A stretch of DNA of 64,000 nucleotides from Catenovulum maritimum. GTDB taxonomy: Bacteria > Pseudomonadota > Gammaproteobacteria > Enterobacterales > Alteromonadaceae. The stretch spans positions 62,001-126,000 of the forward strand of contig NZ_KQ130482.1 of assembly GCF_001050375.1 (NCBI RefSeq), in the 5' to 3' direction. Below are positions 33,926 to 58,774 of this stretch, one piece after another. Each line of letters opens with the position of its first letter. Positions within the stretch are counted from its first letter, which is position 1. A program made the position numbers and the translations under genes. The notes under the pieces were generated by a model, which worked only from the letters and a program-made list of their open reading frames with translations, had not been told where the DNA came from and made no database searches.

Positions 33926-33957
33926 AAACATAGTATATACAAAAACATACTACGTTT
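33926..33957. promoter_or_regulatory. Putative GntR operators at its own promoter
   Basis: AAACATAGTATATAC (33926-33940) and AAACATACTACGTTT (33943-33957). The latter is nearly palindromic. It matches the 15-bp consensus AAACATAnTATGTTT found at other promoters. The remaining 33958-34200 gap is AT-rich and shows no gene. Confidence 0.65.
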
Positions 33958-34200
33958 AAAGATAAAGATGATTTAAACAACAAATACTATTTATCCGTTA
34001 AAATGGCAATTGAAGTGTGTTATTCAGCTGTTGAGCATAGATAGTATTCAACCTTATTTTCCACAGTAAAGTACGAAAATAATGTTCGACTTCTAACTTA
34101 CTTATTTAATATCAGGATCAAGCTTCTATCTAAAATATGAGCTCATTTAGGAAAGATGTTAACCCTAATAAAACACTGATTAATGGAGAAATCTAAAAAA

Positions 34201-34225
34201 GGCTTTGAGGGTTAATCTCAAAGCC
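34201..34225 (-). terminator. Terminator of the heme-LamG protein gene
   Basis: GGCTTTGAG / CTCAAAGCC stem with a T-tract on the minus strand (AAAAAA at 34195-34200), 26 bp past the stop. Confidence 0.8.
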
Positions 34226-34250
34226 AAAGGGAGGTGCCAACAAAATACAT

Positions 34251-37200
34251 TTAAAGCGACTGGCGAACACCAACTGCATTTATTTCTTGTAGTCCGACTG
34301 TTTGTCCACTCGGAGCTTGAAGCAATACTCGGACCTGACTTGCGCTAAAAGTAACTGAGTAAGTTTGTAAGTTTTGGTTACTGCTGGCTTGCCAATTAGT
34401 TACATCTAGCCAAGCATTACTGGCGTTATCCCAAGTTTGGATTTTCCATCTTGAAACTTGCTCAGGGTTCGAATTATCTTCCTTTAAAGTAAAACTGATA
34501 TCTTGGTACACAGCGCCGAAATCGAATTCCAACCAAACCGGAGAGGAATTTGCGCCTCTTTCACCAACCTGTGTAACGGCTTCTTCTGCACTGTTATCAG
34601 AATTATCATCTAATGCATAACCAATTGTAGCATTTACCCAGTTGCCACTATTACCGACCAGAGTTGATAAATTAACAATGTTTTCTGGCTGGTTTGGTGT
34701 GCTTGTATCTGTGTCTTCGCCTGTACTGGCGAGTACCAACCTGTCAATCGAAAAACCTTCTACCGGGTCGGCAATAAAATGCTCTGCTGGAATGCCTTGG
34801 CCCAACCAGTTAGCGGGAATATTACCAAATACCTTAGCATCCGGTTGCATAGGTTGTCGTCTCGGATCATCAACTGCATCTAAACTATTATTTAAGGTAA
34901 GCGCGTCAATATCTAAACCTTGCATCCCACCCGCTGTATGACAGCTTAAACAAAATGCGTTATTGCTAGAATCCGGTCTAGGAGCATTCCAAAGTAAAGG
35001 CCCTTCCGGAAAGTTAATAGAATCACGAATACTGTGCAGTCCTGCTGGTATATTCGCTAAATGCGCAGCATAGTCTGCACTATAGTCGCTGTAACAAACG
35101 TATTTGTCGTAGCTAGGCTTATTTCTAGTATTCAAAGTATTTCGAATTGCATTGTGAGAACCAGCAGGCATGCTATCTGCGTAATCATTCCAATAATGCC
35201 ATTGCGTATCATCAACAGGAGCAGCAGAGTCTAAACCAACTAAAGTACCATTGGCGTGATTACAAGCCATTTCTACATTCACTCTTTCCGCCATCACTTT
35301 AAAGTCGTCGATCCAGCCAATAAAATTCGATGAATCAGTCGTCTGACTATGGCCAAGCGTCAACTCTCCTTGCTGCATCTCAAATAGACTGTCGCTATGA
35401 GTGAATAAATTGACTCTGAAGCCATTAATATAAGTCGTGATGGTGCGGTTATTGTTAGTTGCTTGTATGCCAATATGTGTCCATGCATTGGTTGGAATAA
35501 CATTGCGAGTATTAATTAATCTAACTTGGTTACCCGTTGAATCAAAGTAAACTAATCGATTTGCGTTACGCACTCTTATTTCAGAGTTATCAGGGAAACG
35601 GATTAAAGTTTTATCTCCAGTCTGGCTACCTCGCATATCTAGAAAAAGACTATAGTACCAATCTGTCTCTTGGATATCTCTGGTTTGTGCCGGCACCGAA
35701 AATTCGATACCACTGCTATTACCGCTAAGCCAAAAACCTTTGCCGTTAATACCACCCTTGGCGATAGGCTCTATTCGGCCATCACCTAATATGTCACCAT
35801 ATAAGGGTATGTTCCATTCAGGTTCGGCAAAACTTGCATTACTTTCAGGTAAAACTCGTCCCGCAGTTGCTGCGTTTTGGACTTTTCCGTCGAGCGTTAT
35901 CCTACCGCCATTACTTCTTAATTCAACCACTTGAGCCATGTTTGCATTGATAAAACTATTTGGGTTTAAGTAGTCATCAAATGCCATTTCAGTGGTACCT
36001 CTACCAGAGCTAACCAGCCAGCTAACGTCCGCAGGGGTAACAGGTTTCATATGCTCTAAGTAATTAAACCTATGCTCATTACTATCAAAAAAGGTTGTAT
36101 TGCCAGAGCTAGCTAAAGGCAGTAGCTCTTCACGGTTATCGCGGCCACTACCAACACGGGTGTAACCATCAAAATTAGACGTTGCTTGATATAATTGCAC
36201 TTCTCGCTGTGAGCCGTCGTCTGCGTGCAAGGTAAAATCTATATTGTTAATTAGGTTATCTAATAAAACCATTTTACCTCGGGTCCAAAGCCCCATAATA
36301 ACCCTACCATTAAGGGCGGAACCATTTTGAGCATCCAAGTCATCAACACATTCATTTACTGACTCAAGGCATCTTGCAGGGTAAAGTGATTCACCTGTTT
36401 TAGTATCATAAAGGCTAGTACCAACTGCTGTAATTGTGATGTTATCCCCTTCTTTATCAATCCAAGGATAAGTGCCTATTGGGTTGCCATCTGGAATTAC
36501 ATTATTTGCCGTATCTCGAAACAACTGCATAGCAAAACCATATCTTTGGTTTATGGTCGTGTCGTAAGGCGCATGTCCAAGTGGATATGGCTTATCCCAT
36601 TGAGTCACGTCACAAGCCGTTTGTGATTCAGGGTTATCATTAACAAAGTAGATGTTATCTGATTTACTGGTATGGCTGACATTTTGGCTATCACGCCAAG
36701 TAATTTCAGTGCCTGCGCCGACTCTTACAAACAGTAATCGACCATCACTGGTAGTCATTGGCTCTAAGAAACTATTCAATTCAAAAGTAGCGCCTTGTAC
36801 AGCTGTTCCTGCTGTTACCTCTACAATTTCTGCATCAGCAGTTTTAGGATTGCTTACTCTAATCGTGACAGGCGTGCCGAAAATGGTTCTTAAATCTGCG
36901 TTATTGTCGTCTCTTTCCGAACGAATAATTGTCACGGTATAACAATCATCGGCATTATCTACACCACATGCCATCGGATTTTTAATATTAGATGTTTCAT
37001 CAAAAGCCGGATCACATAAACCTAAGTGTGAAGATGCGTCCCCTTGAATTTGATTGCTATATAGCACGGCATTACTATCCGCTAATGCATTTGGTTTGCT
37101 TAAAATATCTGTACCAGTCCCAACTTCAGAGTTAACAAATGCTTGTTCGAGTTTTTCGGGTACTTGTAACCTAAAAGCTACCCGTCCATTTTCTTGCAAT

Positions 37201-37400
37201 TTGTGAGAAATACCAACTCTACCGTCAGCGGTTGTTTGTAAGGTTGGAATAGTCGGCCGAGTAAACTGAGGTCGGATTTCACCATCACGTGTTTCCATCA
37301 TATACACGTCACGATCAATACTAGGTTGTTCCGGTAAAGCAAAAACTGAATGCGCAACAAATAGGTTTAAAGCACCTAATAATTTTATTTTCTTATTCAT
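34251..37400 (-). CDS. Large secreted protein: LamG domain, single CxxCH heme motif, F5/8-like C-terminus
   Basis: 1049 residues from ATG at 37400 (an upstream ATG 15 codons earlier is less likely). Signal peptide MNKKIKLLGALNLFVAHSVF. A long beta-rich N-terminal part (about 25-520) has no recognised family. A LamG/concanavalin module (about 530-715) reads WYYSLFLDMRGSQTGDKTLI, WTHIGIQATNNNRTITTYI and FIGWIDDFKVM. A short linker then carries one CLSCH motif near residue 815 (codons near 34940), the c-type heme signature, followed by a Met/Asp-rich segment. The last 150 residues resemble a discoidin (F5/8 type C) beta-barrel (WKIQTWDNASNAWLDVTNWQ, VRVLLQAPSG). I infer a secreted glycan-binding protein with a possible electron-transfer site. 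The heme ligation is unproven; a Met or His sixth ligand must be searched for. Confidence 0.75.
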   Translation of the reverse strand: MNKKIKLLGALNLFVAHSVFALPEQPSIDRDVYMMETRDGEIRPQFTRPTIPTLQTTADGRVGISHKLQENGRVAFRLQVPEKLEQAFVNSEVGTGTDILSKPNALADSNAVLYSNQIQGDASSHLGLCDPAFDETSNIKNPMACGVDNADDCYTVTIIRSERDDNNADLRTIFGTPVTIRVSNPKTADAEIVEVTAGTAVQGATFELNSFLEPMTTSDGRLLFVRVGAGTEITWRDSQNVSHTSKSDNIYFVNDNPESQTACDVTQWDKPYPLGHAPYDTTINQRYGFAMQLFRDTANNVIPDGNPIGTYPWIDKEGDNITITAVGTSLYDTKTGESLYPARCLESVNECVDDLDAQNGSALNGRVIMGLWTRGKMVLLDNLINNIDFTLHADDGSQREVQLYQATSNFDGYTRVGSGRDNREELLPLASSGNTTFFDSNEHRFNYLEHMKPVTPADVSWLVSSGRGTTEMAFDDYLNPNSFINANMAQVVELRSNGGRITLDGKVQNAATAGRVLPESNASFAEPEWNIPLYGDILGDGRIEPIAKGGINGKGFWLSGNSSGIEFSVPAQTRDIQETDWYYSLFLDMRGSQTGDKTLIRFPDNSEIRVRNANRLVYFDSTGNQVRLINTRNVIPTNAWTHIGIQATNNNRTITTYINGFRVNLFTHSDSLFEMQQGELTLGHSQTTDSSNFIGWIDDFKVMAERVNVEMACNHANGTLVGLDSAAPVDDTQWHYWNDYADSMPAGSHNAIRNTLNTRNKPSYDKYVCYSDYSADYAAHLANIPAGLHSIRDSINFPEGPLLWNAPRPDSSNNAFCLSCHTAGGMQGLDIDALTLNNSLDAVDDPRRQPMQPDAKVFGNIPANWLGQGIPAEHFIADPVEGFSIDRLVLASTGEDTDTSTPNQPENIVNLSTLVGNSGNWVNATIGYALDDNSDNSAEEAVTQVGERGANSSPVWLEFDFGAVYQDISFTLKEDNSNPEQVSRWKIQTWDNASNAWLDVTNWQASSNQNLQTYSVTFSASQVRVLLQAPSGQTVGLQEINAVGVRQSL

Positions 37401-37453
37401 ATAATTCTCTACAGTACTGGGACCTCCTTGAACCCTAAACATCAAATATTTTT

Positions 37454-37468
37454 AAACATACTACAAAT
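37454..37468 (-). promoter_or_regulatory. Putative operator half-site upstream of the heme-LamG gene
   Basis: AAACATACTACAAAT, in which the left 9 bases match the consensus and the right half is weak, about 54 bp upstream of the start codon. The 37401-37604 gap otherwise shows only AT-rich sequence. Confidence 0.45.
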
Positions 37469-37604
37469 AAAAAACATCAAGTGTCAAACAAAATAAACAT
37501 CTTATTAACAATAAGCCTGCTATTTTGTGAATTTTATGTAAATAATATTTATTACACCCCACCATAAAGGTATGATGTAATTACAGATATCAAGTTAAGA
37601 GTTA

Positions 37605-38684
37605 ATGATGAATAATTTTAAAAATAAAGCAGTTAGACATCTAACATGTTTGGCTGTTGTGACAAGCCTTTCCGCTTGTACCAGTACAGAAGACAATAAT
37701 CAGCCTTTACAAGCTGTAACCTCAACAACTCCTACCTCTCACCCCACTTTAGTCAAAACAGATATATTGCCTTTAAGCGATCCAGACAATAAAAGCGGTT
37801 GGTTACTCAATACTGTCGTCAGTGATGAGTTTGAAGATAATCACTTGGATGAAGACAGATGGTATATCGTTGGTAAATTTGAGAATGGAAAGCCCGTTTA
37901 CAAGCATCCTGACAAGCCGAATAAAAAAGTTTGGAAAGGTAGAGCTCCCTCACAATTCTCAGGTAGAAATCATAGGTTGGAAGATGGAAAGCTAATTTTA
38001 GAAACTCGTTGGGAACCTGATTTTCCATTTAGTGAAGAAATTAAAATTCCAGTATTTGGTGAACCCATGAAGTACGCCAATATAACCACAGCCTGTATTA
38101 TTGCACGAAAGTCTTTTAAATACGGTTACTTAGAAGTTAAAAGCAAAGCGGCAGATGCTGAAATATCCAGTGCTTTTTGGGCTATGGGGCCTCAGTTAGA
38201 AATTGATTTTTATGAGCAATTTGGTGATTACCGCGGCCAAGGTAAAGTAGATATTGATCGTCAGCTATGGTGGTCGATTCGTGATTGGGGTGATAAAAGA
38301 GTGAGAGGAAAACCAACCTATACAGAGAAAAAAGATCTTGGTTTTAGAGTTGCAGACGACTTTCACGTTTATGGCATAGAGTGGGATGAAACCGGCGTGA
38401 AATATTACATAGATGGTAAATTATTCAGCCAAGTTACCGCTGAGGAAGTCACAGCTTGGGCAAGAAAAAACCGAGATGTAGACGAGAATTACCAAGGCTA
38501 TGTTGCGGACAGACCAATCAATGTATGGTTTGATCAAGAAACCTTCCCATGGAACGGACTCCCTGAGAGTAAAGCAGACCTAGAACTAAATAGTCCTGAA
38601 GGTAAAAAAGACGACGGTGTGGTAGATTTTGAAATCGAGTATTTACGTATCTGGCAAAAACCGAGTCAGCTAGAAACTCAATAA
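37605..38684 (+). CDS. GH16-family glycoside hydrolase, lipoprotein (copy 1)
   Basis: 359 residues; lipobox SLSAC (Cys25). The GH16 jelly roll is clear: VVSDEFEDNHLDEDRWY, FKYGYLEVKSKAAD, SSAFWAMGPQ, then the catalytic LEIDFYEQ, with Glu199, Asp201 and Glu204 in the E-x-D-x-x-E pattern, and FHVYGIEWDETGVKYYIDGK. The family covers agarases, porphyranases, carrageenases and laminarinases. The context of sulfatases and other GH16s suggests a sulfated galactan (agar, porphyran or carrageenan type). This paralogue is distant from the other two. Two adjacent ATGs are possible starts (37605, 37608). Confidence 0.85.
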   Translation: MMNNFKNKAVRHLTCLAVVTSLSACTSTEDNNQPLQAVTSTTPTSHPTLVKTDILPLSDPDNKSGWLLNTVVSDEFEDNHLDEDRWYIVGKFENGKPVYKHPDKPNKKVWKGRAPSQFSGRNHRLEDGKLILETRWEPDFPFSEEIKIPVFGEPMKYANITTACIIARKSFKYGYLEVKSKAADAEISSAFWAMGPQLEIDFYEQFGDYRGQGKVDIDRQLWWSIRDWGDKRVRGKPTYTEKKDLGFRVADDFHVYGIEWDETGVKYYIDGKLFSQVTAEEVTAWARKNRDVDENYQGYVADRPINVWFDQETFPWNGLPESKADLELNSPEGKKDDGVVDFEIEYLRIWQKPSQLETQ

Positions 38685-38689
38685 AATTA

Positions 38690-38722
38690 AGCCCTTAATT
38701 CGATATTTTCGGGTTAAGGGCT
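38690..38722. terminator. Bidirectional terminator
   Basis: AGCCCTTAA / TTAAGGGCT stem with a 15-nt loop, between the convergent GH16 and DUF1080 genes. Confidence 0.6.
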
Positions 38723-38766
38723 ATCATATCTAATAGAGCCGACTCTACTCTGAGATTGAGTATGTG

Positions 38767-39663
38767 CTAATCAATTCGACGAATTTGAGCTTCGATTTCT
38801 GGTGGTAATTGAGTAACAGTTCGAATCTTCATATCCTTATAATAAATTTCTGCAGCTTCTGATTGAAATTGAACTTGTCCTTTAGTTAAAGGCTTGCCAT
38901 GTTTATCTTGTAAGTTTTCAACAAACATGACGACTTCGCCATTAACTATATGCACAGCTTCATCTCCAACTGCATATAACTCCACAGTATTCCAATTTCC
39001 TAGCGGCATTTCATTCTCTATATAAGCGTTTGTATATCTCGCCCCAGTAATGATGTTATCGCTATTAGGGTCGTAATAATATAATCCGTTATCACGTTTA
39101 TCTGGCTTATTGCCTTTTTCAACCATAAAGCCTCTATATTGACCTTTTGGCCCTTTAAGCCCTAAGTAATCCCCCACGTCGCTTTCTTGTATTTGGTATT
39201 CGAGGCAAGCCTTCCACGTGTGCCAAAAGACACCATGTTCACCTTGGCAATGATAGAGCAGACCGCTATCTCGCTTTTTATCTAATCTAGGCTCATACCT
39301 TGGCCAGCCCCACCTAAATTGAAAAACTAGATGATAGTTTTGGTACTCTTTTTTAGTATTAATACCTGCATAAATTTCACCTGTGACTTTCATAATAACT
39401 TGATTATCTTCTTGAATAACACTAAAAATCTTCAAGGGGTCATTATTCAAGCCAAGCGGTGTCCCTTTGGTCACATCATCACTTTGATAAGTCCCTGCTT
39501 GTAAGCCTTTTACACTTGAATGAGGAATACCGACCCAAGTTTCAAATTGAGATAATTCTTTGTCTATTAAGTAATGCCAAGTATCCGCACTAACTGTTTG
39601 GCAAGTAATAGAAAAGCCTATACCTAACAAAGTAAGCGCCTGTCGTTTTATAGTTAATCGCAT
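38767..39663 (-). CDS. DUF1080 (3-keto-disaccharide hydrolase-like) secreted protein
   Basis: 298 residues from ATG at 39663; signal peptide about 1-24 (LLGIGFSITCQTVSA). Concanavalin-like fold with the family strings WVGIPHSSVKGL, NYHLVFQFRWG, DSGLLYHCQGEHG, GNWNTVELYAVGDEAVHIVN and GQVQFQSEAAEIYYKDMKIR. The DUF1080 family contains glycosidases and 3-keto-glycoside hydrolases; Q-S-E-A in the GQVQFQSEAAE segment is typical. An export signal suggests the periplasm. It may cleave oligosaccharides from the GH16 enzymes. No strong operator precedes it; an AAACAT half-site sits near 39716. Confidence 0.8.
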   Translation of the reverse strand: MRLTIKRQALTLLGIGFSITCQTVSADTWHYLIDKELSQFETWVGIPHSSVKGLQAGTYQSDDVTKGTPLGLNNDPLKIFSVIQEDNQVIMKVTGEIYAGINTKKEYQNYHLVFQFRWGWPRYEPRLDKKRDSGLLYHCQGEHGVFWHTWKACLEYQIQESDVGDYLGLKGPKGQYRGFMVEKGNKPDKRDNGLYYYDPNSDNIITGARYTNAYIENEMPLGNWNTVELYAVGDEAVHIVNGEVVMFVENLQDKHGKPLTKGQVQFQSEAAEIYYKDMKIRTVTQLPPEIEAQIRRID

Positions 39664-39827
39664 AATTTTCACTTTTATTTTTTATTATCCACTTAAATTA
39701 AATCAAAAAAGTAAAAACATAACAACAAACCATGCATAACTACGCATAACTATGCAAAACTTAAAAGTATAAAGCAGTTAGGGAGAAGCAAAGTAAGAAA
39801 ATTAGATAACAAGGCGAGATAACAAAA

Positions 39828-39855
39828 TAGCGAATTAACTCAGGTTAATTCGCTA
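39828..39855 (-). terminator. Terminator after the SMP-30-like gene
   Basis: 12-bp stem TAGCGAATTAAC / GTTAATTCGCTA with a 4-nt loop, 20 bp downstream of the stop, with A/T-rich flanks. Confidence 0.65.
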
Positions 39856-39875
39856 TAAAACAACAGTAAATCGGA

Positions 39876-40949
39876 TTACTTCAGCGGTATGTAAGAAATA
39901 CGAGCCTGTTTATCATCTTTAGTGTTAACTATCCCTTTGCCTTTCATCAAGTCAAAGTTTGAAATAACAAGCTTGTCATTATAAACAATTAAGTCTGCAG
40001 GCTGATCAATTTGACCATTAGAACCATCATTATCTGGGTAATCTGCGATCACAGAAACTTGTTTCTGAGGGGTGATTTTAATAATTTGATTATTTAAAAA
40101 ACCTGCTAGATAAAGATTGTCTTCAGCATCTATATTAATACCATCTGGGCCAACATTTTTTGGTACAGTTGCAAAAACCTCTTGCTCAACAACTTTGCCC
40201 TGATTATTCAGCTTCAATTTATAAATAATGCCATCGCCTAAATTACCCGTGAATAAATTACCTTTACTATCAAACACTAAGCCATCTAGACCAAAAGCGC
40301 GATCTGGATTTAACGTATCAGCTGAAAAAATCAAGTGCTCAGAACTGCCATTGCTACTGACTTTAATATTTCTGTCCGTTGTTTTAAATCGGTATAAACC
40401 ACTAGCCATGCCTTTAGATTTCATTTTTGGCAATCTAAGCTGAGTTAGGTATAAAGCACCATCGTGATATCTCAAGCCATTTGGAGAGCTCATGCCATAT
40501 GCAACGACTTCAGTCGAAGCGACTTGATTACCCTTAAAAGTTAAGCGGAGTAACCTAGCTTGATTGCCGCCTTGATTGTCACATATATAAAGTGATCCGT
40601 CTGGTGCATAAGCAATGCCCATAGGTCTTACTTTGCCTTTACCATTTGACGGAGTTAAATCGGCAAGTTTAGTTACCTTTCCTTGGTTAGTAATATTGAG
40701 TAAAACGCCTGGATATCTACCTTTTTGTGAGTAGTTAACGCAAGATAAAGTTAAATCACCATTTGGTGCAATCGCAAACGCATCCGGCGTTGGACAATAA
40801 TCAGGTAAGTTTGCAAACAGCTTAGCAGGTTGTAATCCTGGTGCTGCGGTATCACTTACCTCTTTGGTTGAACTACATGCAGAAACAACACTGACTATAG
40901 CAGCAGATAATAACAATTTTTTAAATTGGTTTGACTTAACTAACTTCAT
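39876..40949 (-). CDS. SMP-30/gluconolactonase-like six-bladed propeller lipoprotein
   Basis: 357 residues from ATG at 40949, 7 bp after AGGAAT; the longer frame start has no support. Lipobox VSVVSACSST. NHL/SMP-30 propeller pattern: PNGDLTLSCVN, YAPDGSLYICDNQGG, SSPNGLRYHDGALYLTQLRL, FGLDGLVFDSKGNLFTGNLG, GPDGINIDAEDNLYLAGFL, the sequence of blades expected for lactonases and Ca-binding strand proteins. A sugar-lactone hydrolysing role fits a GntR sugar-acid regulator, but lipidation is unusual for a lactonase, so it may instead be a binding protein. It is divergent from GH16 copy 2, with one palindromic operator between. Confidence 0.75.
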   Translation of the reverse strand: MKLVKSNQFKKLLLSAAIVSVVSACSSTKEVSDTAAPGLQPAKLFANLPDYCPTPDAFAIAPNGDLTLSCVNYSQKGRYPGVLLNITNQGKVTKLADLTPSNGKGKVRPMGIAYAPDGSLYICDNQGGNQARLLRLTFKGNQVASTEVVAYGMSSPNGLRYHDGALYLTQLRLPKMKSKGMASGLYRFKTTDRNIKVSSNGSSEHLIFSADTLNPDRAFGLDGLVFDSKGNLFTGNLGDGIIYKLKLNNQGKVVEQEVFATVPKNVGPDGINIDAEDNLYLAGFLNNQIIKITPQKQVSVIADYPDNDGSNGQIDQPADLIVYNDKLVISNFDLMKGKGIVNTKDDKQARISYIPLK

Positions 40950-41016: not shown

Positions 41017-41031
41017 AAACATACTATGTTT
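41017..41031. promoter_or_regulatory. Putative GntR operator, perfect palindrome
   Basis: AAACATACTATGTTT, arms of seven perfectly paired bases around a central base (AAACATA-C-TATGTTT). It lies between the divergent SMP-30-like and GH16 genes, about 68 bp and 59 bp from their starts. Confidence 0.75.
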
Positions 41032-41089: not shown

Positions 41090-42394
41090 ATGAAAAATAT
41101 TGTACTGAGTAGTTTATTGACCTTATCCACTAGCTTAATCTGCACTTTCGCAAATGCTAGCAACCCAACAGGGTTTGAACAGAGTAGCTTAGCCTTTTCA
41201 CCCATGGCTGACTTTAGCGACGAATTCAACGCTAACCAAATCAACACGAGCAAATGGGAAAATGCCCCCAAGAGTTTAGTGATAGGAGCTTGGAGTTTTG
41301 TCCCAGAAAATACCTATGTTAAAAATGGTGTTTTGAATATAGACGTCACTCAAGAAACCCATACAAGGCCCTTCCACGATAGCTGTTGGGACGGTGTAGC
41401 TGGCGGCTCTGCCAAGCTGACCCAAAGAGAGCTTTATTATAAATCAGGTGCTATCAGAACAGCGGCTGATACAGTTTATGGCTTTTATGAAGCAAAAATT
41501 AAAGGCGTGAAAATGTTTCCGGGTTTAAGCCCTGCGTTTTGGCTTTACAGTGACGGACACCCTTTTCCAGACAGCCATGTAGAAGGCAGCGTCGACTATA
41601 GTGAAATAGACATAGTTGAATTACAGCAAGCGGATTGGCATGGCCCGAAAAAGGATGATGCCGATCCGGTGAATGTAATGGACCATAACTTACATGCACG
41701 CATCGTCGGAAAAAATGGCAAAAAGATATGGCGACGTCCCAAAGCTTTTAGAGAAACGCAATTATTAAACTATCATGCGCCATTTGACCCTTCAGAGGAC
41801 TTTCACACATACGCTGTTGAAAACAGAAAAGATAGAATTTTTTGGTATGTCGACGGTAACTTAGTCGGTAGTAAAGCAAACTTATTTTGGCATAGACCTA
41901 TGCACTTAATCTTATCTATGGGATTAAGAAGACACTTTATTAAATTTAATGGTAAATGCCAGCGCGCCGATCCGCATCCAGATAATGTCACTAAAAAAGG
42001 CTTCCCGGAAGATGCTAACATGCAGATTGAATATGTCAGATCATGGCAAATTGAACCAAGTATCTGGTTAGCAAGCAGCCAAATGACAAACCAGAGCCTA
42101 GCTTTATCTTTTGATTACCATGCGGGTAGCACTGAAGAAGTAATTAAAGGCAACACAAACGGTATAGAACTGAGTGTCGTTGAAGTTAAAAATGGTAAAA
42201 TTGTTAAACACCTAAAAGGTATCACAGATAAAAGTGTGTTAGATGGTGACAAAAAATACGCCGGCTCTAGCCAATTTAAATTGGATTTAGCCGAGTTTAA
42301 TAAGCCGTTAACCGATTTAGCTGTCATTGCAATGTTTTCATCTTCTAACGGAAATGAAATCCAATCACAGTTGATCCCTATCTCTAATCTGTAA
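41090..42394 (+). CDS. GH16-family glycoside hydrolase (copy 2)
   Basis: 434 residues from ATG at 41090 (a TTG two codons earlier is not needed). Signal peptide ends near LICTFANA. The jelly roll has DFSDEFNANQINTSKWE, GFYEAKIKGVKMFPGLSPAF, then YSEIDIVELQ with Glu172, Asp174 and Glu177 as E-I-D-I-V-E. Later, MDHNLHARIV, FHTYAVENRKDRIFWYVDGN and LILSMGLRRHFIKFNGK. The C-terminal 90 residues form an extra small beta domain. It is clearly related to copy 3 (55810-56799) and resembles the carrageenase/porphyranase side of GH16, though I cannot fix the subfamily. The upstream palindrome links it to the GntR regulon. Confidence 0.86.
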   Translation: MKNIVLSSLLTLSTSLICTFANASNPTGFEQSSLAFSPMADFSDEFNANQINTSKWENAPKSLVIGAWSFVPENTYVKNGVLNIDVTQETHTRPFHDSCWDGVAGGSAKLTQRELYYKSGAIRTAADTVYGFYEAKIKGVKMFPGLSPAFWLYSDGHPFPDSHVEGSVDYSEIDIVELQQADWHGPKKDDADPVNVMDHNLHARIVGKNGKKIWRRPKAFRETQLLNYHAPFDPSEDFHTYAVENRKDRIFWYVDGNLVGSKANLFWHRPMHLILSMGLRRHFIKFNGKCQRADPHPDNVTKKGFPEDANMQIEYVRSWQIEPSIWLASSQMTNQSLALSFDYHAGSTEEVIKGNTNGIELSVVEVKNGKIVKHLKGITDKSVLDGDKKYAGSSQFKLDLAEFNKPLTDLAVIAMFSSSNGNEIQSQLIPISNL

Positions 42395-45645: not shown

Positions 45646-45719
45646 CTTACCTTCTCCAAAACTTTTTTGTAGGCTGCCTCTGCAGCCTAATAAATACTTT
45701 ATGAATTTGTTACGTTCGC

Positions 45720-49835: not shown

Positions 49836-51284
49836 CTAAGGAATCGATATTTGCGAGCTTGATTGCTTACTATCAGCATTTTTCCAGCGATACTTATCCA
49901 TACGATCTATATCCATGTTTTCGAACTTTCTTTGTAGTAACCAACGAGGTCTTTCCAATGTTGATTCCCACTCAAATAACTGTTTAAACATAGCTTTTAC
50001 GCGCTCTGGCTCTTGAGCTGCATAGTTTTTAACTTCTTTGATGTCGTTTGGTACGTAATACAATTCTGCTGGACGGTCAGGAAAACGAATTAATTTCCAA
50101 TCGCCAACTCGAATCGTGGCTCTGACATCTTTTTTCCAATACATAACTTCATGCGGTCTACCAGCTTTTTCGCCTATTACGAATGGAGCTAAATCAACAC
50201 CGTCAACACTGTTAAGGTCTTTAGTATCGCCACCACCCGCAGCATAGAATGTAGGTAACAAATCAAGAGTTAGTACCGGGAACTGATACTTAGTATTGGC
50301 TTTAAACTTGTTCGGCCATTTAGCAACAAATGGTACGCGTAAGCCGCCTTCTAAGTGGTTAGATTTAGTGCCACTAAATGGCGCATTATCAGAAGCGTTT
50401 TTGTCTGTAGGACCGCCATTGTCATTAGAGAAAACAACTAGAGTATTGTCATCTATGCCTAACTCTTCTAACTTATCCATGATTTTTCCAGACGCTCTGT
50501 CTAAAGAAAGTGTCATGGCTGCAACAATTTTGCGGTTGCCGGTTAAATTTGGGAATTGCGCCAAATCTTCTTCCGTAGCTTCCATTGGAGTATGAACCGC
50601 ATTAAAGGAAACAAAGGCAAAGAAAGGTTGCTTTTTAGCATGTTTGCGTTCAATAAAATCAACGACTTCATCAGCAATCACATCGGTTAAATAACCTTCA
50701 TGCTCTTTAAAGTTACCAAAGCCACGCTCTAAGTAGTTAAGCTCGTCATGTGGTTTATTCTTTTCGGTATATGGATAAAAGCTTCGAGCGCCGCCACGGA
50801 AACCGTAGAACTCATCAAAACCATTCTTAGTTGGATGAAATTTATCTGCGCCTCCTAAATGCCATTTACCATAGTAAGACGTCGCATAACCAAGCTTTTG
50901 CAAATACTCGCCCATGGTAACTTCTTCAACAGGCACGCCCATATCATTGTTATCTTTAGCTGAGTTTTTACTCATATAACCAGGTACATTATTTTCTTCA
51001 AAGCCAAACCTTTGTTGATATTTACCAGTAATAATACCGGCTCTAGAAGGACCACAAGTCGGATCAGATACATAGCCTTGGGTAAAAATCACCCCTTCTT
51101 TCGCTAATTTGTCTAGGTTAGGCGTCTTCATTACTTTGCTGCCATGAAAACCGAAATCGGCATATCCAGCATCATCAGCAAACAAAAAGACAATATTAGG
51201 TTGTTCTTCATTTCGAGATTTAGCGTTCGCTAAATTCGATAACACAAGTAAGAAACTAAAAATATATAAGGTTAAGTACTTCAT
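49836..51284 (-). CDS. S1-family sulfatase
   Basis: 482 residues, signal peptide to about 22. [19 protein letters not shown] carries the metal Asp pair; the formylglycine site is CGPSR (Cys77), followed by [20 protein letters not shown], and the late motifs HLEGGLRVP. It would remove sulfate from galactan oligosaccharides. It is upstream of the TonB receptor on the same strand, 157 bp away, and downstream of the palindrome at 51310-51324. Its formylglycine motif matches that of the sulfatase at 57286 (CGPSR), unlike the CAPSR/CTPSR pair of the ulvan locus. Confidence 0.92.
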
Positions 51285-51309: not shown

Positions 51310-51324
51310 AAACATCATATGTTT
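51310..51324 (-). promoter_or_regulatory. Putative GntR operator for sulfatase-receptor operon
   Basis: AAACATCATATGTTT: palindromic arms AAACAT/ATGTTT around a short centre. It is 26 bp upstream of the sulfatase start. 51325-51564 is AT-rich and holds no gene. Confidence 0.7.
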
Positions 51325-51564: not shown

Positions 51565-51579
51565 AAAGATAATATGTTT
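51565..51579 (+). promoter_or_regulatory. Putative operator half-site for the secreted protein gene
   Basis: AAAGATAATATGTTT: the right arm TATGTTT is perfect and the left is degenerate. It lies 29 bp upstream of the ATG at 51608. Confidence 0.45.
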
Positions 51580-51607: not shown

Positions 51608-52315
51608 ATGAAATATTGGTACTCCGCTTTTTTACTACTAGTAGTGACAAGTTTTGCTCACGCTGAAGATAAAATTATTAATTTTTCAGTTCAAGAAAAT
51701 ATCGGCTTAAAGGAAGTTCCAATTATTCATGTTGAAGTTGAAATTAGTAAAACCCGTGATTTATATGTCGCCCTACAAGATCTAGATAATGGCTGGAAGC
51801 AAATTACATCAAAAATGAAACGCCTGAGAAAATCAGGTAAGTACAGCTTACAGTTGAAAGTCGAAGATTTAAAACCAGGCAACTATCGTTGGAATGCTTA
51901 CATTGCCCCTAGAGGTAAAAACTGGAATGAAAAAATAGGTGAGCAGCTTAGTCAAAATATGCGTGTCGTTGATGCAGATAAATATGTAGAAGCAATTAAA
52001 TTCTCTAATAATGACCAAATCCAAAAAGTAGTCTGGCCAAAAGTAATCGCAGATAACTCAGAATATATACTCAATGTGGCTTATGCGATCACTCAGCCAA
52101 GAGATTTATATATTAAGCTTTATAACAAAGTCGGTTGGGTCGAACTAGGGAGCATCAAAGTCCCCGTCGCTAAACCAGGTGAAATTAAGTTCCCAATCGC
52201 AGATATGATTAAGGTTTATGGCAAAGGTGAATTCGCTTGGGTTGCTAATTTGTCAGAAACCGGCGAAACCGAAATTTTAGGTAAAAAACAAGGTCGCGTT
52301 TTTACTATTGAATAA
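51608..52315 (+). CDS. Secreted protein with two repeated beta domains, unknown function
   Basis: 235 residues; signal peptide to about 20 (FLLLVVTSFAHAED). Two similar beta-sandwich halves: the first (about 25-125) has VEVEISKTRDLYVALQDLDN and LKPGNYRWNAYIAPRG, the second (about 130-235) has VAYAITQPRDLYIKLYNKVG and GKGEFAWVANLSETG. The common pattern is a hydrophobic strand, x-x-RDLY(V/I)xL, then a late (Y/F)xW(N/V)A strand. No catalytic residues stand out. It is between the operator cluster and an FG-GAP lipoprotein; binding of glycan or a role as accessory domain is possible. Family not recognised. Confidence 0.75.
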   Translation: MKYWYSAFLLLVVTSFAHAEDKIINFSVQENIGLKEVPIIHVEVEISKTRDLYVALQDLDNGWKQITSKMKRLRKSGKYSLQLKVEDLKPGNYRWNAYIAPRGKNWNEKIGEQLSQNMRVVDADKYVEAIKFSNNDQIQKVVWPKVIADNSEYILNVAYAITQPRDLYIKLYNKVGWVELGSIKVPVAKPGEIKFPIADMIKVYGKGEFAWVANLSETGETEILGKKQGRVFTIE

Positions 52316-52359
52316 AGATTGTCGAATTGTGTTAGAAACACATATTTATTAAAAACTTT

Positions 52360-52383
52360 ACGCTCCAACTTGGAGCGTTTTTA
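52360..52383 (+). terminator. Rho-independent terminator
   Basis: ACGCTCCA / TGGAGCGT with a 3-nt loop, followed by TTTTATT, 44 bp past the stop. Confidence 0.85.
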
Positions 52384-52508
52384 TTATCTAAAACTACATT
52401 CAGAGAATAGGTCAACGAATATTCGCTCAATCTAGCTCTATCACCTTCAATAAATTAGCTAGCTAAATTATCCATTTCATTTTTTAAACATTTATAGGTA
52501 ATCATTAC

Positions 52509-54428
52509 ATGTCACTGAAACATAGTTTCATCAAACCAAAAGCCATTTTAACCGCGTTATTAGTAACGAGCGTATATACCAATCTTGCAGGGTGTAGCGC
52601 CACAATAACACCAGAAATAAATGAGTTAGTTTTCATTAAAGCCCAAGAAGATATCAATCTGGAAACGTTAAACCGAAGAAAGTGGGATAATCCAATTGTC
52701 GCGGATTTTGATCAAGACGGTCATACCGATCTACTTTTGCTCGATCACGGCAGGCTGATGAAGATGTATTGGAATAACGGCCAAGGAAAGTTTTTAAAAC
52801 CGATCACAATTAGAGGTGGTGACTTACATGGTGTCGCAGTCGGAGATATTAACCAAGACGGAAAACTTAATATTGTCGTTTCTCAAGGTGGTGGGGCTGG
52901 AACCAACCTTAGAAAACCAGAATTCTACCAAATAGAGAAAAATAGAAAAATATCTAAACTTGCTGATTTAGATAAAAACTTTGTAGCAGGTAGAGGCAGA
53001 GGCGCTAAACTTGTTGACGCTGACAAAGATGGCGATCTCGACTTAATCTTACCAGGCGCTATGTCATCAAAAGATAAACAGAGCCAGATTTTTGTCTACG
53101 AAAATAATGGCAAAGGTCATTATACGCTCCATTCAAGGCTACCAACGATTCGCGGTGAAGCACAAAGATTAAAAATCACTGACTTTAACAATGATGGGAT
53201 TTTTGACCTTATTTTTTATGGCACTTCTCAACCGATCAAACTATATCAGGGCGATGGCAACCTAGGCTATAAAAACGTCACCGAGCAAGTCCTAGCGGGT
53301 AACCAAATCACGCATGTATTAGGAATAGCTGAAATCGACTTTGATAATGACGGCGACTTTGACCTGTTCTTAAATCGCTCAGGCGAGATAGACAAGCAGT
53401 ACCTACATTATGATGCTGAAGAGAAAAATTTAGCAGTCGCAGTCAGAAACAGTAAAAAAATAGATATTAAGCAAATCCAAGCTGGTGACATTCTAAAAAT
53501 TACTAACTTCCAAAAAGTATTAAAGAAGCGAGTTTACTTAGGTAAAACTAAAACACTGTTAGATTTATCTAAAAATGATTGGCATGCTGGGGTCGATCTA
53601 AGCATTAATCATCACGATGCGAATGGATTCCCAGACCACTCCGACTTAGAAAAAGACAGCATACACATAGGTTATTTAGGTGATGGAAATTGGCGGTTAG
53701 CTGCACTAACTCAATTTTTAGGCACAATGACGTTAGTTGATGTCATTATAAATCAAATAGAAAACAAACCTATCGACCAACATTCAGGTATCTTACTCGA
53801 AAATATTCAAGGAAAGTTGCTCGATATTTCTGCATCAAGTCAATTAGACCAGCTTATCAACACGACAGGTACTGCAGTTGCTGATTACAATAATGATGGT
53901 TTTAACGATTTATTTGTTGTCAAGCATGGCACATTAGCGAATCCGGTTAAACAAGCCTTATTAATTAACAACGGCCGTGGCCAATTTAATTTAGTGACTC
54001 ACCATCAAATCGAATCTGCAGGGATGGGAACTTTTGGGATGGGAGCTGATGCACTGGATTACAACCAAGATGGTTTAGTCGATTTGATCTACACCAACGA
54101 AAGAGGTTTGTGGCATTTATATAAAAACAGTAAGTCAATCAAGCAGAAAAATAACTTCATCAAGTTTAAAGTATCGAACTCACCGACGGGGAAAGCGACT
54201 GCACTTGGCGCCATAGTGACCCTCTATCTAGATAATGGAATCACTCAAACTCAAAGAGTCGGTTACGGTGCCGCACCTTATTCTCAATCATTTAATGATA
54301 CTGTACATTTTGGTATTGGTAAGCAAGCTCAATTTGTAAAAATGGAAGTTAAGTGGACAAATGGAGAGTCTGTCGTATTGAATAGTATTAGTGACAATAA
54401 TAATAGCGTCAGTATGTTAACTAACTAA
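52509..54428 (+). CDS. FG-GAP/UnbV repeat lipoprotein
   Basis: 639 residues; signal peptide with lipobox LAGCSA (near Cys29). At least seven calcium-type FG-GAP motifs of D-x-D/N-x-D-G-x-x-D form appear: DFDQDGHTDL, DINQDGKLNI, DADKDGDLDL, DFNNDGIFDL, DFDNDGDFDL, DYNNDGFNDL and DYNQDGLVDL, making a seven-bladed propeller. A C-terminal UnbV/ASPIC module follows (FIKFKVSNSPTGKATALGAI, VKMEVKWTNGES). Such lipoproteins occur beside polysaccharide-degrading genes in marine bacteria but lack a tested role; adhesion or glycan binding is plausible. Preceded by a 52384-52508 gap with an AAACATTTATAGG half-site near 52486. A terminator invaded by an insertion sequence follows. Confidence 0.8.
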   Translation: MSLKHSFIKPKAILTALLVTSVYTNLAGCSATITPEINELVFIKAQEDINLETLNRRKWDNPIVADFDQDGHTDLLLLDHGRLMKMYWNNGQGKFLKPITIRGGDLHGVAVGDINQDGKLNIVVSQGGGAGTNLRKPEFYQIEKNRKISKLADLDKNFVAGRGRGAKLVDADKDGDLDLILPGAMSSKDKQSQIFVYENNGKGHYTLHSRLPTIRGEAQRLKITDFNNDGIFDLIFYGTSQPIKLYQGDGNLGYKNVTEQVLAGNQITHVLGIAEIDFDNDGDFDLFLNRSGEIDKQYLHYDAEEKNLAVAVRNSKKIDIKQIQAGDILKITNFQKVLKKRVYLGKTKTLLDLSKNDWHAGVDLSINHHDANGFPDHSDLEKDSIHIGYLGDGNWRLAALTQFLGTMTLVDVIINQIENKPIDQHSGILLENIQGKLLDISASSQLDQLINTTGTAVADYNNDGFNDLFVVKHGTLANPVKQALLINNGRGQFNLVTHHQIESAGMGTFGMGADALDYNQDGLVDLIYTNERGLWHLYKNSKSIKQKNNFIKFKVSNSPTGKATALGAIVTLYLDNGITQTQRVGYGAAPYSQSFNDTVHFGIGKQAQFVKMEVKWTNGESVVLNSISDNNNSVSMLTN

Positions 54429-54435
54429 TTGGACT

Positions 54436-54465
54436 AAAGGTGATAGCGAGTGCTATCACCTTTTT
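54436..54465 (+). terminator. Rho-independent terminator split by IS insertion
   Basis: 12-bp stem AAAGGTGATAGC / GCTATCACCTTT with loop GAGT, then TTTTT. The T-tract runs into the IS256 element whose target duplication (CCTTTTTG) is part of this terminator. Confidence 0.85.
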
Positions 54466-54466
54466 G

Positions 54467-55776: not shown

Positions 55777-55809
55777 CCTTTTTGCGTACTAAAAATTAAA
55801 AAAAACCAA

Positions 55810-56799
55810 TTAATCAAGCTTCTTATATACCCTTACCCAATCTACCAACATATCTGTTGGATAGCCGTCTGCAGTCGCAGCGCTAGGAACGACACATCGG
55901 TCTAAACCATCTGGACAATTGTTATAAGTCACATGCGGACGTCGCAGACCTAAAGATAAAGTAACATGCATAGGCAAATGCCAATGATGATTCACTTTTT
56001 GAGCAACTTGCTCACCATCTAAATACCAAGTGACGTATTCAGGCGTAACTTCTGCACCATAGATATGAAAATCATCTCTAGGATCAAAGTCGGCATGAAT
56101 TTCATTTTTGGTAAGTTCAGGATAACCCCCAGGTCGCTTCCAAACAACTTCTCCATTTTCAACGATTCGAGTATGTAAATTCATGTCAATCACTTCAGGA
56201 CCATGGAAAACATTTGGGATCCCCGCCCATTCAGATTGTGTTAACTCAACAATATCGACTTCTGAATATTTGATCGCCCCTTCAGCCATCCCAGCCTGCT
56301 CTTGGCCAATACTGTAAATCCAAAATGCAGGGCTAGATCCAGGAAACGTAGGTACGCCTTTAATCCTAGCTTCATAATAGCCGTAGATTTGAGTTTGTTT
56401 CGATCGCAAAATTCCAGAAGTATAAAATAAATCAACGTCGACCCATTTCCCGCCATCTTTCCATGCGCGACGCTGAGTTTGATGCGGTTCGTAATTCATG
56501 GTTATTTTTAAACGACCATCTTCAATCCCAGTATTTTCAGGCTTCCAAGACCAAGGTCCCCAATCAGATGGATCATTAACCCATTTTGCTAAATCAAAGT
56601 CTGATTGCTCGAATTCATCAGATAATTCGGGTACTAACTCCCACTTAGATGCATCCAGATGTTTTAAGCTAGGTACAATTTTATCTTCAACTTGTTCAGA
56701 ATCGTCTTTTTCAGGAGATGGAATAGAGACATCTAGCGTACCGCCACAATTGATCAATAAACCAGATATAAGGAGCGAACTCCATTTAATATTTTTCAT
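55810..56799 (-). CDS. GH16-family glycoside hydrolase, lipoprotein (copy 3)
   Basis: 329 residues from ATG at 56799; longer starts at 56817 and 56850 would place the coding region over the palindromic operator. Lipobox LLINCGG (Cys18). The jelly roll carries LSDEFEQSDFDLAKW, YYEARIKGVPTFPGSSPAFW, YSEVDIVELTQSEW (Glu180, Asp182, Glu185), DMNLHTRIVENGEVVWKRPG, DDFHIYGAEVTPEYVTWYLDGE and HVTLSLGLRRPHVTYN. It is close to copy 2 with the same E-x-D-x-x-E context, probably an endo-hydrolase of sulfated galactan. The IS element lies downstream. Confidence 0.85.
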   Translation of the reverse strand: MKNIKWSSLLISGLLINCGGTLDVSIPSPEKDDSEQVEDKIVPSLKHLDASKWELVPELSDEFEQSDFDLAKWVNDPSDWGPWSWKPENTGIEDGRLKITMNYEPHQTQRRAWKDGGKWVDVDLFYTSGILRSKQTQIYGYYEARIKGVPTFPGSSPAFWIYSIGQEQAGMAEGAIKYSEVDIVELTQSEWAGIPNVFHGPEVIDMNLHTRIVENGEVVWKRPGGYPELTKNEIHADFDPRDDFHIYGAEVTPEYVTWYLDGEQVAQKVNHHWHLPMHVTLSLGLRRPHVTYNNCPDGLDRCVVPSAATADGYPTDMLVDWVRVYKKLD

Positions 56800-56811
56800 A
56801 TACAAACTACA

Positions 56812-56826
56812 AAACATAATATGTTT
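56812..56826 (-). promoter_or_regulatory. Putative GntR operator for GH16 copy 3
   Basis: AAACATAATATGTTT, a perfect palindrome with a central base, about 13 bp upstream of the preferred ATG; a bound repressor would block translation start or transcription. Confidence 0.75.
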
Positions 56827-56954
56827 AAAAATATAACACAAATATAACAATTATAAATTTTCGGGTCAAAGTAAATAATTCTACTATTGCTTGCTTGAAG
56901 TTAAATAAGACTGGAAAGCCCCTTTCCGTATTTTTCTGATTTAAATAATCTGAA

Positions 56955-56968
56955 TTAGGGGTAATAAT
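56955..56968. promoter_or_regulatory. Shared 14-bp element, copy 3
   Basis: TTAGGGGTAATAAT differs by one base from TTAGGGGTAGTAAT at 15627-15640. It links the two polysaccharide loci. The 56851-57285 gap also holds a 14-bp hairpin (57043-57074) and the 197-bp repeat below, and no gene was seen. Confidence 0.45.
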
Positions 56969-57042
56969 TTTAGGTTTTATGTTGGTGATGGAAAAATGTA
57001 ATTTTGGCTTGGCTTGAATGAGAGCGGAGCTCGAAAGATGAT

Positions 57043-57074
57043 TAAACAGTTCATCTTAATAGATGAACTGTTTA
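57043..57074. terminator. Strong 14-bp hairpin of unclear role
   Basis: TAAACAGTTCATCT / AGATGAACTGTTTA with a TAAT loop. It is not next to a stop codon, so terminator function is uncertain; it may belong to the adjacent repeat element. Confidence 0.45.
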
Positions 57075-57080
57075 GTAATA

Positions 57081-57277
57081 AACCTGAACTCTGGATAACG
57101 AGTTAGCTAATACGTTGTAATTTACAACAAAGTTTATTCATAACTCTTCTAGGAAGGTAATTATTCTTAGAGCAAGGCAAATTTGTGTACGTAATAGCTG
57201 GCTATTACTAGCGAATTCAACGCAGTTATAAGGATAAGTAGCCCCTAGAAAGCAAGTTGTTATCCAGAGTTCAGGTT
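57081..57277. repeat. 197-bp element with 19-bp terminal inverted repeats (MITE-like)
   Basis: AACCTGAACTCTGGATAAC at 57081-57099 and its exact reverse complement at 57259-57277 bracket AT-rich sequence without a gene. The inside is non-coding. Length and ends suggest a miniature inverted-repeat element or a deletion derivative of an insertion sequence. No clear target duplication was found. Confidence 0.65.
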
Positions 57278-57285
57278 AATTATAT

Positions 57286-58716
57286 TTATAGACCAAAGGT
57301 TTCTTCAAACCTTGGCATTTTGTTTTCTTTCCACGTTTTTTCCGCCGATGGCGCATGGAACCAGTTCGGTTTTGAGTTCGATTTTGTCCATTGATGCATC
57401 TCTTCAACCATATCTTTTAGAATGTTTGGATGTTTCGAGCTTAAATCATTATTTTCAGCCATATCGTCGTAAATATTATATAAACGCCAGCCTTTGTTAC
57501 CATTTGATATCGCTTTCCACTGCCCTTTTCGCGAAGCAACGTCACTACCTTTTTCACGATGGCGTAATACATAGAAGGCTTCATTTTTATGAACCTCGGT
57601 ACCATTTATAATATGTGGCCACATTTTTTTACCATGCAACTCTTTGCCATTTGGTAATTTAGCTTGTGCAAGTTGAACGAAAGTAGGATAAAAATCTATA
57701 GCTAACACAGGATGTGGATACTGAGTGCCAGATTTAATTTTAGCAGGCCAGTGGAACAACATTGGTGTTCTATAACCGCCTTCTTGAACACTTCCTTTAC
57801 CTTCTTTTAGCGGGAAGTTACGCCCGCCTTGACTTGTTTTACCACCGTTATCGCTTAAAAAGACGATAAGTGTATTATCTAATTGGTTATTTGCTTTTAA
57901 TCTTGCCGTTATTCTGCCAATTCCGCGATCCATAGCATAGACCATAGCAACATAAGTTCTACGTTTTATGTCTTTGATATCAGAAAATAATGCTAAATCA
58001 TCCTCTTTAGCTTCAAGCGGTGTGTGCGGTGCATTGTAAGCAAGGTATAAAAAGAAAGGCTGTGACTTACCTTTAGCTTTGTCGATAAAAGATATCGCCT
58101 CTGTTGATAAAAAGTCAGTTACATACTCTGTTTGTCTTTCTTCAACACCATTTCGCTCCATCGGCAGTAAGTAATTCCAGATGTTTTTTGCATTGCGCTT
58201 TATCATGCTATCGTATTTCGGCAAATATTTTTCTGGAAAGTAAACATGACCGCCACCGAGAAAACCAAAAAATTCATCGAAACCGCGTTTATTAGGATGA
58301 AAATCAGGCGCTTCACCTAAATGCCATTTACCGATTGCGCCAGTAAAATAGCCTGAATCTTGTAGTACTTTACTAATGAAGGGTTCTTTTAGGCTAATAC
58401 CAAAATCAGAACCTGCTGCAGGCAAATTAAATTGGGAACCAATTTTATGTGGATATAAACCTGTCATTAAAGCAGCTCGGCTTGGCCCACAAAATGGATG
58501 CGCTGTGTAAGCTTGCGCAAACTGTAAACCATTCTCAGCAAGTTTATCTATCTTTGGTGTTTTAATATCAGGAGCGCCATTGTTAAAGCCAACGTCGGCA
58601 TAGCCTAAATCATCAGCCAAAATAAGCAGAATGTTCGGCCTTTCAGCACTAGTTGCAGTTAGTGTATAAAAAGCTAACACGCTCAACATTATTAGCTTAT
58701 TAAATTTTTTTATCAT
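57286..58716 (-). CDS. S1-family sulfatase
   Basis: 476 residues; signal peptide to about 24. NILLILADDLGYADVGF, formylglycine site CGPSR (Cys76), GKWHLGEA, FLSDNGGKTS, and VQEGGYRTPM. Similar to the sulfatase at 49836 in its formylglycine motif, but with a different late motif, so probably another sulfate position. It follows an operator-like site at 58760 and ends next to the 197-bp repeat. It completes the galactan locus. Confidence 0.92.
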   Translation of the reverse strand: MIKKFNKLIMLSVLAFYTLTATSAERPNILLILADDLGYADVGFNNGAPDIKTPKIDKLAENGLQFAQAYTAHPFCGPSRAALMTGLYPHKIGSQFNLPAAGSDFGISLKEPFISKVLQDSGYFTGAIGKWHLGEAPDFHPNKRGFDEFFGFLGGGHVYFPEKYLPKYDSMIKRNAKNIWNYLLPMERNGVEERQTEYVTDFLSTEAISFIDKAKGKSQPFFLYLAYNAPHTPLEAKEDDLALFSDIKDIKRRTYVAMVYAMDRGIGRITARLKANNQLDNTLIVFLSDNGGKTSQGGRNFPLKEGKGSVQEGGYRTPMLFHWPAKIKSGTQYPHPVLAIDFYPTFVQLAQAKLPNGKELHGKKMWPHIINGTEVHKNEAFYVLRHREKGSDVASRKGQWKAISNGNKGWRLYNIYDDMAENNDLSSKHPNILKDMVEEMHQWTKSNSKPNWFHAPSAEKTWKENKMPRFEETFGL

Positions 58717-58759
58717 TGATATATTTCCAATTAAATTTCAACAAAGATACTACAAAATT

Positions 58760-58774
58760 ATAGGTAGTATGTTT
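58760..58774 (-). promoter_or_regulatory. Putative GntR operator for the sulfatase gene
   Basis: Plus-strand ATAGGTAGTATGTTT; its complement reads AAACATACTACCTAT, matching the left arm AAACATACTA of the other sites. It lies 44 bp upstream of the ATG. Confidence 0.55.

Follow-up and report, generated by a model that had tools for sequence, protein, structure and literature searches.

A palindrome recurring in Catenovulum maritimum as the probable operator of DgoR-like GntR repressors linked to carrageenan use

Within a 64 kb stretch of contig C1 from the 4.55 Mb genome of Catenovulum maritimum (the whole of which we call ‘the window’), a 15-bp palindrome, AAACATAnTATGTTT, recurs upstream of genes that include those for GH16 enzymes, sulfatases and a GntR regulator (at 33188; hereafter ‘the window GntR’). 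An earlier note on this DNA had taken that regulator, the nearest one, to read the palindrome and to control a galactan regulon. Our analysis retains the palindromic operator, narrows the galactan (probably) to carrageenan, and sets the window GntR aside as the reader: the palindrome is very probably the operator of a family of DgoR-like GntR autorepressors with an FCD domain that governs the use of carrageenan and 3,6-anhydro-D-galactose, with the gene at 33188 as one of its targets. Two genes of this family lie on contig C16 of the same genome (at about C16:74558-75292 and C16:83454-84185), and we refer to the family as C16-type. The sites, the genes they precede, their co-occurrence with this type of GntR and their autoregulatory position are results of computation.

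Sites were scored with two position weight matrices, the first trained on sites from the window region (with 33926 included, and 58760 and 37454 left out) and the second solely on sites of other genomes. The sites of the window, none of which is assigned a strand, are as follows.

33926..33957: tandem operator covering the leader of the window GntR gene, made up of a weak site (33926) and a strong one (33943), each 15 bp long, at a spacing of 17 bp
37437..37468: degenerate sites 37437 and 37454, 17 bp apart, between LamG and GH16 genes; score near background
41017..41031: AAACATACTATGTTT, a perfect operator lying between the SGL gene and a kappa-carrageenase-like gene
51310..51324: AAACATCATATGTTT, a strong operator centred 33 bp 5' of a sulfatase start; syntenic site in genome G003
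51565..51579: strong operator AAAGATAATATGTTT, centre 36 bp 5' of a secreted protein; syntenic site in G003
56812..56826: perfect operator AAACATAATATGTTT immediately 5' of a GH16 start, overlapping the frame's first ATG (56817)
58760..58774: borderline site, right half intact, 5' of an iota-type sulfatase

The first matrix placed five sites (33943, 41017, 51310, 51565 and 56812) at 19.1-22.0, followed by 58760 at 14.0, 33926 at 12.8, 37437 at 11.2 and 37454 at 8.2; the second recovered the same five at 19.1-22.3, with 58760 at 11.6, 37437 at 11.5, a presumed background match at 19297 at 11.4, and both 33926 and 37454 below 10. Mismatches to AAACATAnTATGTTT are ordered similarly: none at 41017 and 56812, one each at 33943, 51310 and 51565, three each at 33926 and 58760, and four (by hand count) at 37454, where the sequence is AAACATACTACAAAT and a single half is kept beside the weak adjoining match at 37437. 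The seven sites listed in the earlier note therefore include five that are solid, while 58760 is borderline, 33926 is a weak partner of 33943, and 37454/37437 lies near background. The remainder of the window holds no site scoring at least 12 with either matrix, which bears out the specificity that had been claimed, and over 98 kb the first matrix found 8 sites of at least 14, compared with 0.7 in simulated sequence. The 17-bp spacing is common to both tandem pairs. A looser criterion of up to three mismatches was dropped, as the window count was not above chance (17 sites against 11.5 expected; 17 was reached in 9 of 100 shuffles).

Across the whole genome, where as in the family scans below the reversed pattern served as control for mismatch counts, AAACATAnTATGTTT occurs exactly twice, both times inside the window, and nine more times with one mismatch. 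Five of these 11 sites fall within the 64 kb window (binomial p 2.4e-7, for a window that was not chosen blind to the sites), and a sixth lies past its end at C1:132732. All 11 precede genes of fitting kinds, much as the earlier note had described its targets: GH16, sulfatase, secreted, LamG, FG-GAP, molybdo-enzyme, 3-keto-disaccharide hydrolase and GntR genes. In the window these are the GntR gene, the SGL gene and a kappa-carrageenase-like GH16 gene, a kappa-type sulfatase gene and that of a secreted-looking protein (two sites), and a second kappa-carrageenase-like GH16 gene; past the window they are XdhC-MobA-Fer2-molybdo-enzyme genes; elsewhere they are paralogues of the FG-GAP/ASPIC gene (C1:398 kb) and of the LamG gene (contig C7), a GH16 gene with CBM4_9 (contig C10, with a divergent small gene there), and a 3-keto-disaccharide hydrolase gene with GntR copy C on C16. 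Sites beyond the original list are thus found at L016:6405 and L016:6732 past the window, and on C1, C7, C10 and C16. Equal matches in many unrelated promoters, the observation that the earlier note had named as damaging, were not seen at up to one mismatch. The looser core AAACAT-n3-ATGTTT has eight exact matches in the genome against none in the control, and two of the eight (both on contig C2) look incidental, one being intragenic and one lying 5' of a gene without an evident link. A search at up to two mismatches was uninformative, since the reversed pattern gave nearly as many matches (66) as the palindrome (71).

Stretches of four other genomes (G003, G004, G016 and G173, most of them picked for motif content) contain 38 sites scoring at least 14.5, of which 30 lie no more than 350 bp 5' of a gene that has a homologue in the window or on C16 (GH127, dauB-like, MFS, sulfatase, GH16, FG-GAP, TonB receptor at 26-41% identity, and GntR genes). 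The two sites between the sulfatase and the secreted protein are syntenic in G003. Where a target is called, site centres lie mostly 2 to ~220 bp 5' of the start codon, a closeness that fits repression, although it is no proof of it.

The number of sites in a genome follows the C16-type GntR with near-perfect regularity. A search of the genome with the window GntR protein returned 11 matches including itself, among them the two on C16 (32% identity), one of which has a strong upstream site. In a family sample of 196 genomes from 49 genera, the C16-type GntR is present in 22 genomes and 11 genera (best match per genome below 1e-105). These 22 carriers have 5-13 motif matches (mean 8.6, control 1.8), while the 174 non-carriers average 1.6 (control 1.4); the Mann-Whitney p for carriers against non-carriers is 1e-14, with kinship among genomes uncorrected in this and the other such tests. 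At least five matches were found in 22/22 carriers against 12/174 others, and at least six in 21/22 against 5/174. Those last five genomes were considered as counter-examples and rejected, as their matches are background-like, all with one mismatch; in four of the genomes they are scattered over 4 to 7 contigs, and in the fifth along 2.6 Mb of a single contig. Within the genus, enrichment is confined to G000, G003 and G004 (11, 11 and 8 matches), the only three that carry the C16-type GntR; the other five have 2-5 matches, and controls range from 0 to 3.

The same counts bear on the proposal that the window GntR reads the palindrome and controls the surrounding locus, which we now regard as very unlikely. 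That protein is the nearest regulator, it is itself an FCD-type GntR with two sites over its own leader, and it stands no further from DgoR than the C16-type proteins do. Relatives of it at E<=1e-45 occur in 77 of the 196 genomes, and among non-carriers of the C16-type gene those with such a relative (63 genomes) have slightly more matches than those without (1.97 against 1.45, p 0.011). However, this small excess is mirrored in the reversed control (1.83 against 1.14), and it is gone when relatives are taken at 50% identity or more (44 genomes; 1.68 matches against 1.64 in the control; p 0.41). Two genomes of the set, G006 and G007, carry relatives with a nearly identical reading head and have 3 matches each against 2 in the control.

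The promoters of the regulators' own genes separate the two types further. With the first matrix, a site of at least 11.5 is present within 100 bp upstream in 26 of 30 C16-type loci (24 of 28 outside this genome); L099, one of the 30, has a misassigned gene frame and was not scored as site-bearing. We also surveyed this promoter in the best 78 distinct loci kept from 139 relatives of the C16-type GntR in named genomes: a site of at least 9 lies within 200 bp in 73 of them, at least 12 within 100 bp in 69, and at least 14 in 63, whereas matches of at least 12 occur elsewhere in these loci at 0.013 per 100 bp. Of the 23 loci with a GC content of 0.55 or more, 18 score at least 14, and the site-bearing loci include some of 55-67% GC. 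C16-type genes from Alphaproteobacteria, from Vibrio and from a SAR324 record keep the site immediately 5' of their start. By comparison, 30 relatives of the window GntR all stay below 11.5 within 100 bp upstream, with 9.1 as their highest score (second matrix), although the first matrix did give 14.2 at -161 for one relative (L110) and 12.0 over the start of a paralogue on contig C6. These relatives have a different common element, resembling TATGATATAA, in 18 of 27 promoters (L110-L136) against 1 of 30 C16-type promoters, and it may be their own operator or promoter element. It was also seen upstream of the relatives in G006 and G007 (L031, L032). Given relatives without upstream sites and without a motif excess over control, the window GntR is probably not the reader.

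A second possibility is that both proteins act at the palindrome, with the C16-type GntR as master and the window GntR recruited as a local competitor or co-regulator. The tandem operator before the window GntR gene is missing in the relatives examined, so the gene seems to have been drawn under the control of the regulon and could feed back upon it. We nevertheless consider joint action unlikely: the reading head of the window GntR is nearly unchanged from that of relatives in unenriched genomes, and the presence of a relative leaves the motif number unchanged among the 22 carriers (p 0.75).

The least probable of the alternatives, and one to which we give very little weight after a co-occurrence scan of the C16-type and window-type GntR, is that a third, unrelated regulator travels with carrageenan genes and reads the palindrome, the C16-type GntR being merely a target. 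Other regulators do occur in such loci: in G003, for example, a LacI-like gene (recognised from sequence) adjoins a site, and the carrageenan system of Zobellia includes a regulator of the AraC family (PMC5698469). The palindrome nonetheless stays upstream of the C16-type GntR in the distant lineages named above, and in three of these loci (L188 from Vibrio penaeicida and the alphaproteobacterial L178 and L201) the GntR gene is followed by apparent ABC transporter genes and by oxidoreductase genes instead of carrageenases. In L201, Pfam identifies a periplasmic binding protein, an ABC ATPase and a permease, and in L188 a binding protein, the remaining transport-like genes being recognised from their frames; after these, L178 and L188 carry one gene for an aldo/keto reductase and one for an aldehyde dehydrogenase, and L201 has one for a GMC oxidoreductase. 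These three loci suggest use of a monomer without carrageenases.

As is characteristic of the FadR/FCD subfamily, the GntR winged-helix domain (PF00392) and the FCD effector domain (PF07729) score above cut-off in the two C16 proteins, in the window GntR and in one distant relative; the C16-type GntR reaches no NCBIfam cut-off. The two copies are ~70% identical to each other; they are neighbours in G003 and G004, and in the genome of the window ~9 kb lies between them. The nearest solved relative of the C16-type protein is DgoR (7c7e, E 3e-29, residues 21-237), a match that does not single it out as DgoR because the window GntR obtains the same score. DgoR of E. coli is an autorepressor that binds two inverted repeats over its promoter, has D-galactonate as effector and contains a metal site (PMC12288454, PMC7674646). 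When its metal triad and D-galactonate contact residues (PMC7674646) were compared in an alignment read by eye, the triad D146, H150 and H195 and residues R102, D184 and R224 were found to be kept in the C16-type protein, with T191 replaced by Ser; the ligand is therefore likely to be a sugar acid held together with a metal. A further likeness to DgoR is that the C16-type GntR gene adjoins a gene for 2-keto-3-deoxy-galactonate kinase.

We accordingly propose the following scheme for the C16-type GntR. Relatives of E. coli DgoR, GntR repressors with an FCD domain, would read the non-canonical core AAACAT-n3-ATGTTT. The C16 copies adjoin genes with a predicted role in 3,6-anhydro-D-galactose use, encoding a putative aldehyde dehydrogenase (dauA-like), MR_MLE enzyme (dauB-like), DGOK kinase (dauC-like) and aldolase (dauD-like), together with candidate GH127, MFS transporter and sulfatase genes. 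When substrate is absent, a repressor dimer would occupy operators close 5' of start codons and silence its own gene, the dau genes and scattered carrageenan loci, including those of the window. A sugar acid from carrageenan breakdown (D-galactonate, 3,6-anhydro-D-galactonate or 2-keto-3-deoxy-galactonate) would then enter the metal-containing FCD pocket as inducer, whereupon the repressor would leave the DNA. The GntR gene at 33188 would be one of the genes so controlled.

Several points weigh against this proposal. Binding, repression and ligand are inferred from the computed results. The pocket residues Q173, R179, W181 and S221 of DgoR are not kept in the C16-type protein (same alignment), so its ligand may differ from that of DgoR. 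The core departs from the rule TKGT-n3-ACMA described for operators of the FadR subfamily (PMC4494728), with AC and GT in opposite order, and the operator is unlike the first inverted repeat of E. coli DgoR, IR1 (TTGTAGTACAA); because the rule has named exceptions, including BioR and NanR (PMC4494728), this mismatch does not exclude membership of the FadR/FCD group. Sites are lacking at 11.5 in three of the 30 family C16-type loci (L095, L101 and L103) and at 9 within 200 bp in 5 of the 78 named loci, and copy B in the present genome has a weak site only (12.4). Among the 38 sites of the other genomes, three have no called target within 350 bp, two are intragenic and three precede only genes without a homologue in the compared set. 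Finally, the second matrix was trained partly on genomes on which it was tested (the 78 named loci and the promoter comparison), and the co-occurrence scan covered two regulator types only, the C16-type and the window-type GntR.

The genes of the region are listed below with their strands.

33188..33931, minus: GntR/FCD regulator (type A), operator target and probably not its reader; Pfam GntR and FCD; relatives without the motif
34251..37400, minus: secreted LamG-domain protein with one CxxCH motif, start at ATG
37605..38684, plus: GH16 enzyme, nearest solved chain 9ijc
38767..39672, minus: 3-keto-disaccharide hydrolase domain protein
39876..40949, minus: lactonase-like SGL protein with its start at ATG, transcribed divergently to the GH16 gene
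41090..42394, plus: kappa-carrageenase-like GH16, start at ATG (5ocq, E 6e-60)
43303..49679, minus: genes downstream of the sulfatase, for a TonB-dependent receptor and an Ig-like (Big_2) protein
49836..51284, minus: S1 sulfatase, nearest to an exo-4S-kappa-carrageenan sulfatase (6prm, E 1e-195)
51608..52315, plus: secreted-looking 235-aa protein, no Pfam match
52509..54428, plus: FG-GAP / ASPIC-UnbV protein
55810..56799, minus: kappa-carrageenase-like GH16, start at second ATG (1dyp, E 1e-66)
57286..58716, minus: S1 sulfatase, nearest to an iota-carrageenan sulfatase (6bia, E 1e-186)
58824..61678, minus: molybdopterin-binding large subunit and 2Fe-2S subunit

Since two GH16 enzymes are nearest to kappa-carrageenases and two sulfatases to kappa- and iota-carrageenan sulfatases, the substrate is probably kappa/iota-carrageenan; the same four nearest matches speak against agar and porphyran, which were set aside. 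Features of carrageenan utilisation present by sequence are a carrageenase, carrageenan sulfatases, a GH127 3,6-anhydro-D-galactosidase and genes of the dau pathway. On C16, the ALDH, MR_MLE, DGOK and GH127 genes are identified by Pfam and the aldolase from sequence and homology only, and dau names are given by resemblance to published loci. For the GH16 enzyme at 37605 the matches point to no one substrate, 9ijc being followed by generically named GH16 chains and then by porphyranases. The LamG paralogue on C7 and the FG-GAP / ASPIC-UnbV paralogue at C1:398 kb each have a strong site of their own.

Near the carrageenan genes of C16 (L057:8027-10963) there is a cytochrome P450 gene (Pfam) followed by ferredoxin-like and reductase-like genes (recognised from sequence), a set that we presume could demethylate 6-O-methyl-galactose. 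The carrageenan region also holds a Mutator-family transposase and a group II intron reverse transcriptase (window 54500-55708 and 61884-63035), and two molybdopterin dehydrogenase gene sets (L016:6781-11085 and window 58824-61678), the first accompanied by XdhC and MobA-like genes and with a strong operator upstream. A figure legend of PMC5698469 names an isoquinoline 1-oxidoreductase among carrageenan-locus genes.

Known systems resemble the present one in part. Unlike E. coli DgoR, which reads TTGT-n3-ACAA and controls one operon, the C16-type GntR is associated with AAACAT-n3-ATGTTT, a multi-locus polysaccharide regulon and several changed pocket residues. A GntR named ‘galactonate operon transcriptional repressor’ is entered with dauA-D in a figure legend on the carrageenan loci of Pseudoalteromonas carrageenovora (Gobet 2018, PMC6262041); we liken the two by that description, and the available part of the paper describes no operator, regulon or test for it. 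Zobellia galactanivorans similarly combines a core locus, which holds dau, GH127 and sulfatase genes, with co-expressed genes elsewhere (Ficko-Blean 2017, PMC5698469), but in that work CgrA, an AraC-family protein, is the regulator that was tested, and ‘palindrom’ is absent from the main text. One locus of Paraglaciecola hydrolytica S66 likewise brings together a kappa-carrageenase and a new subfamily of GH16 (PMC5943477); ‘GntR’ is absent from the main text of that paper, and the genome carries a C16-type GntR with a weak upstream site (11.5). In the literature within reach, which left out most subscription papers, we found no mention of AAACATNNNATGTTT or of anhydrogalact with GntR and operator, and carrageenan together with DgoR only in a rat imaging paper.

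If the C16-type GntR is the reader, scattered carrageenan genes of marine Proteobacteria are tied to one predicted switch, the case illustrates that proximity alone does not identify the right regulator, and the palindrome offers a testable exception to the GntR operator rule. The operator could also guide searches of other genomes for carrageenan genes whose function is unknown, such as the LamG, FG-GAP and molybdo-enzyme genes. More tentatively, and with rather more doubt than confidence, operator (its contact bases reversed relative to the family rule) and GntR may together make up a module, spread through marine Alpha- and Gammaproteobacteria, that senses 3,6-anhydro-galactose or its acid and serves full carrageenan degraders and scavengers alike; scavengers would then only import and oxidise the released sugar, by way of the GntR, an ABC transporter, an aldo/keto reductase and an aldehyde dehydrogenase.

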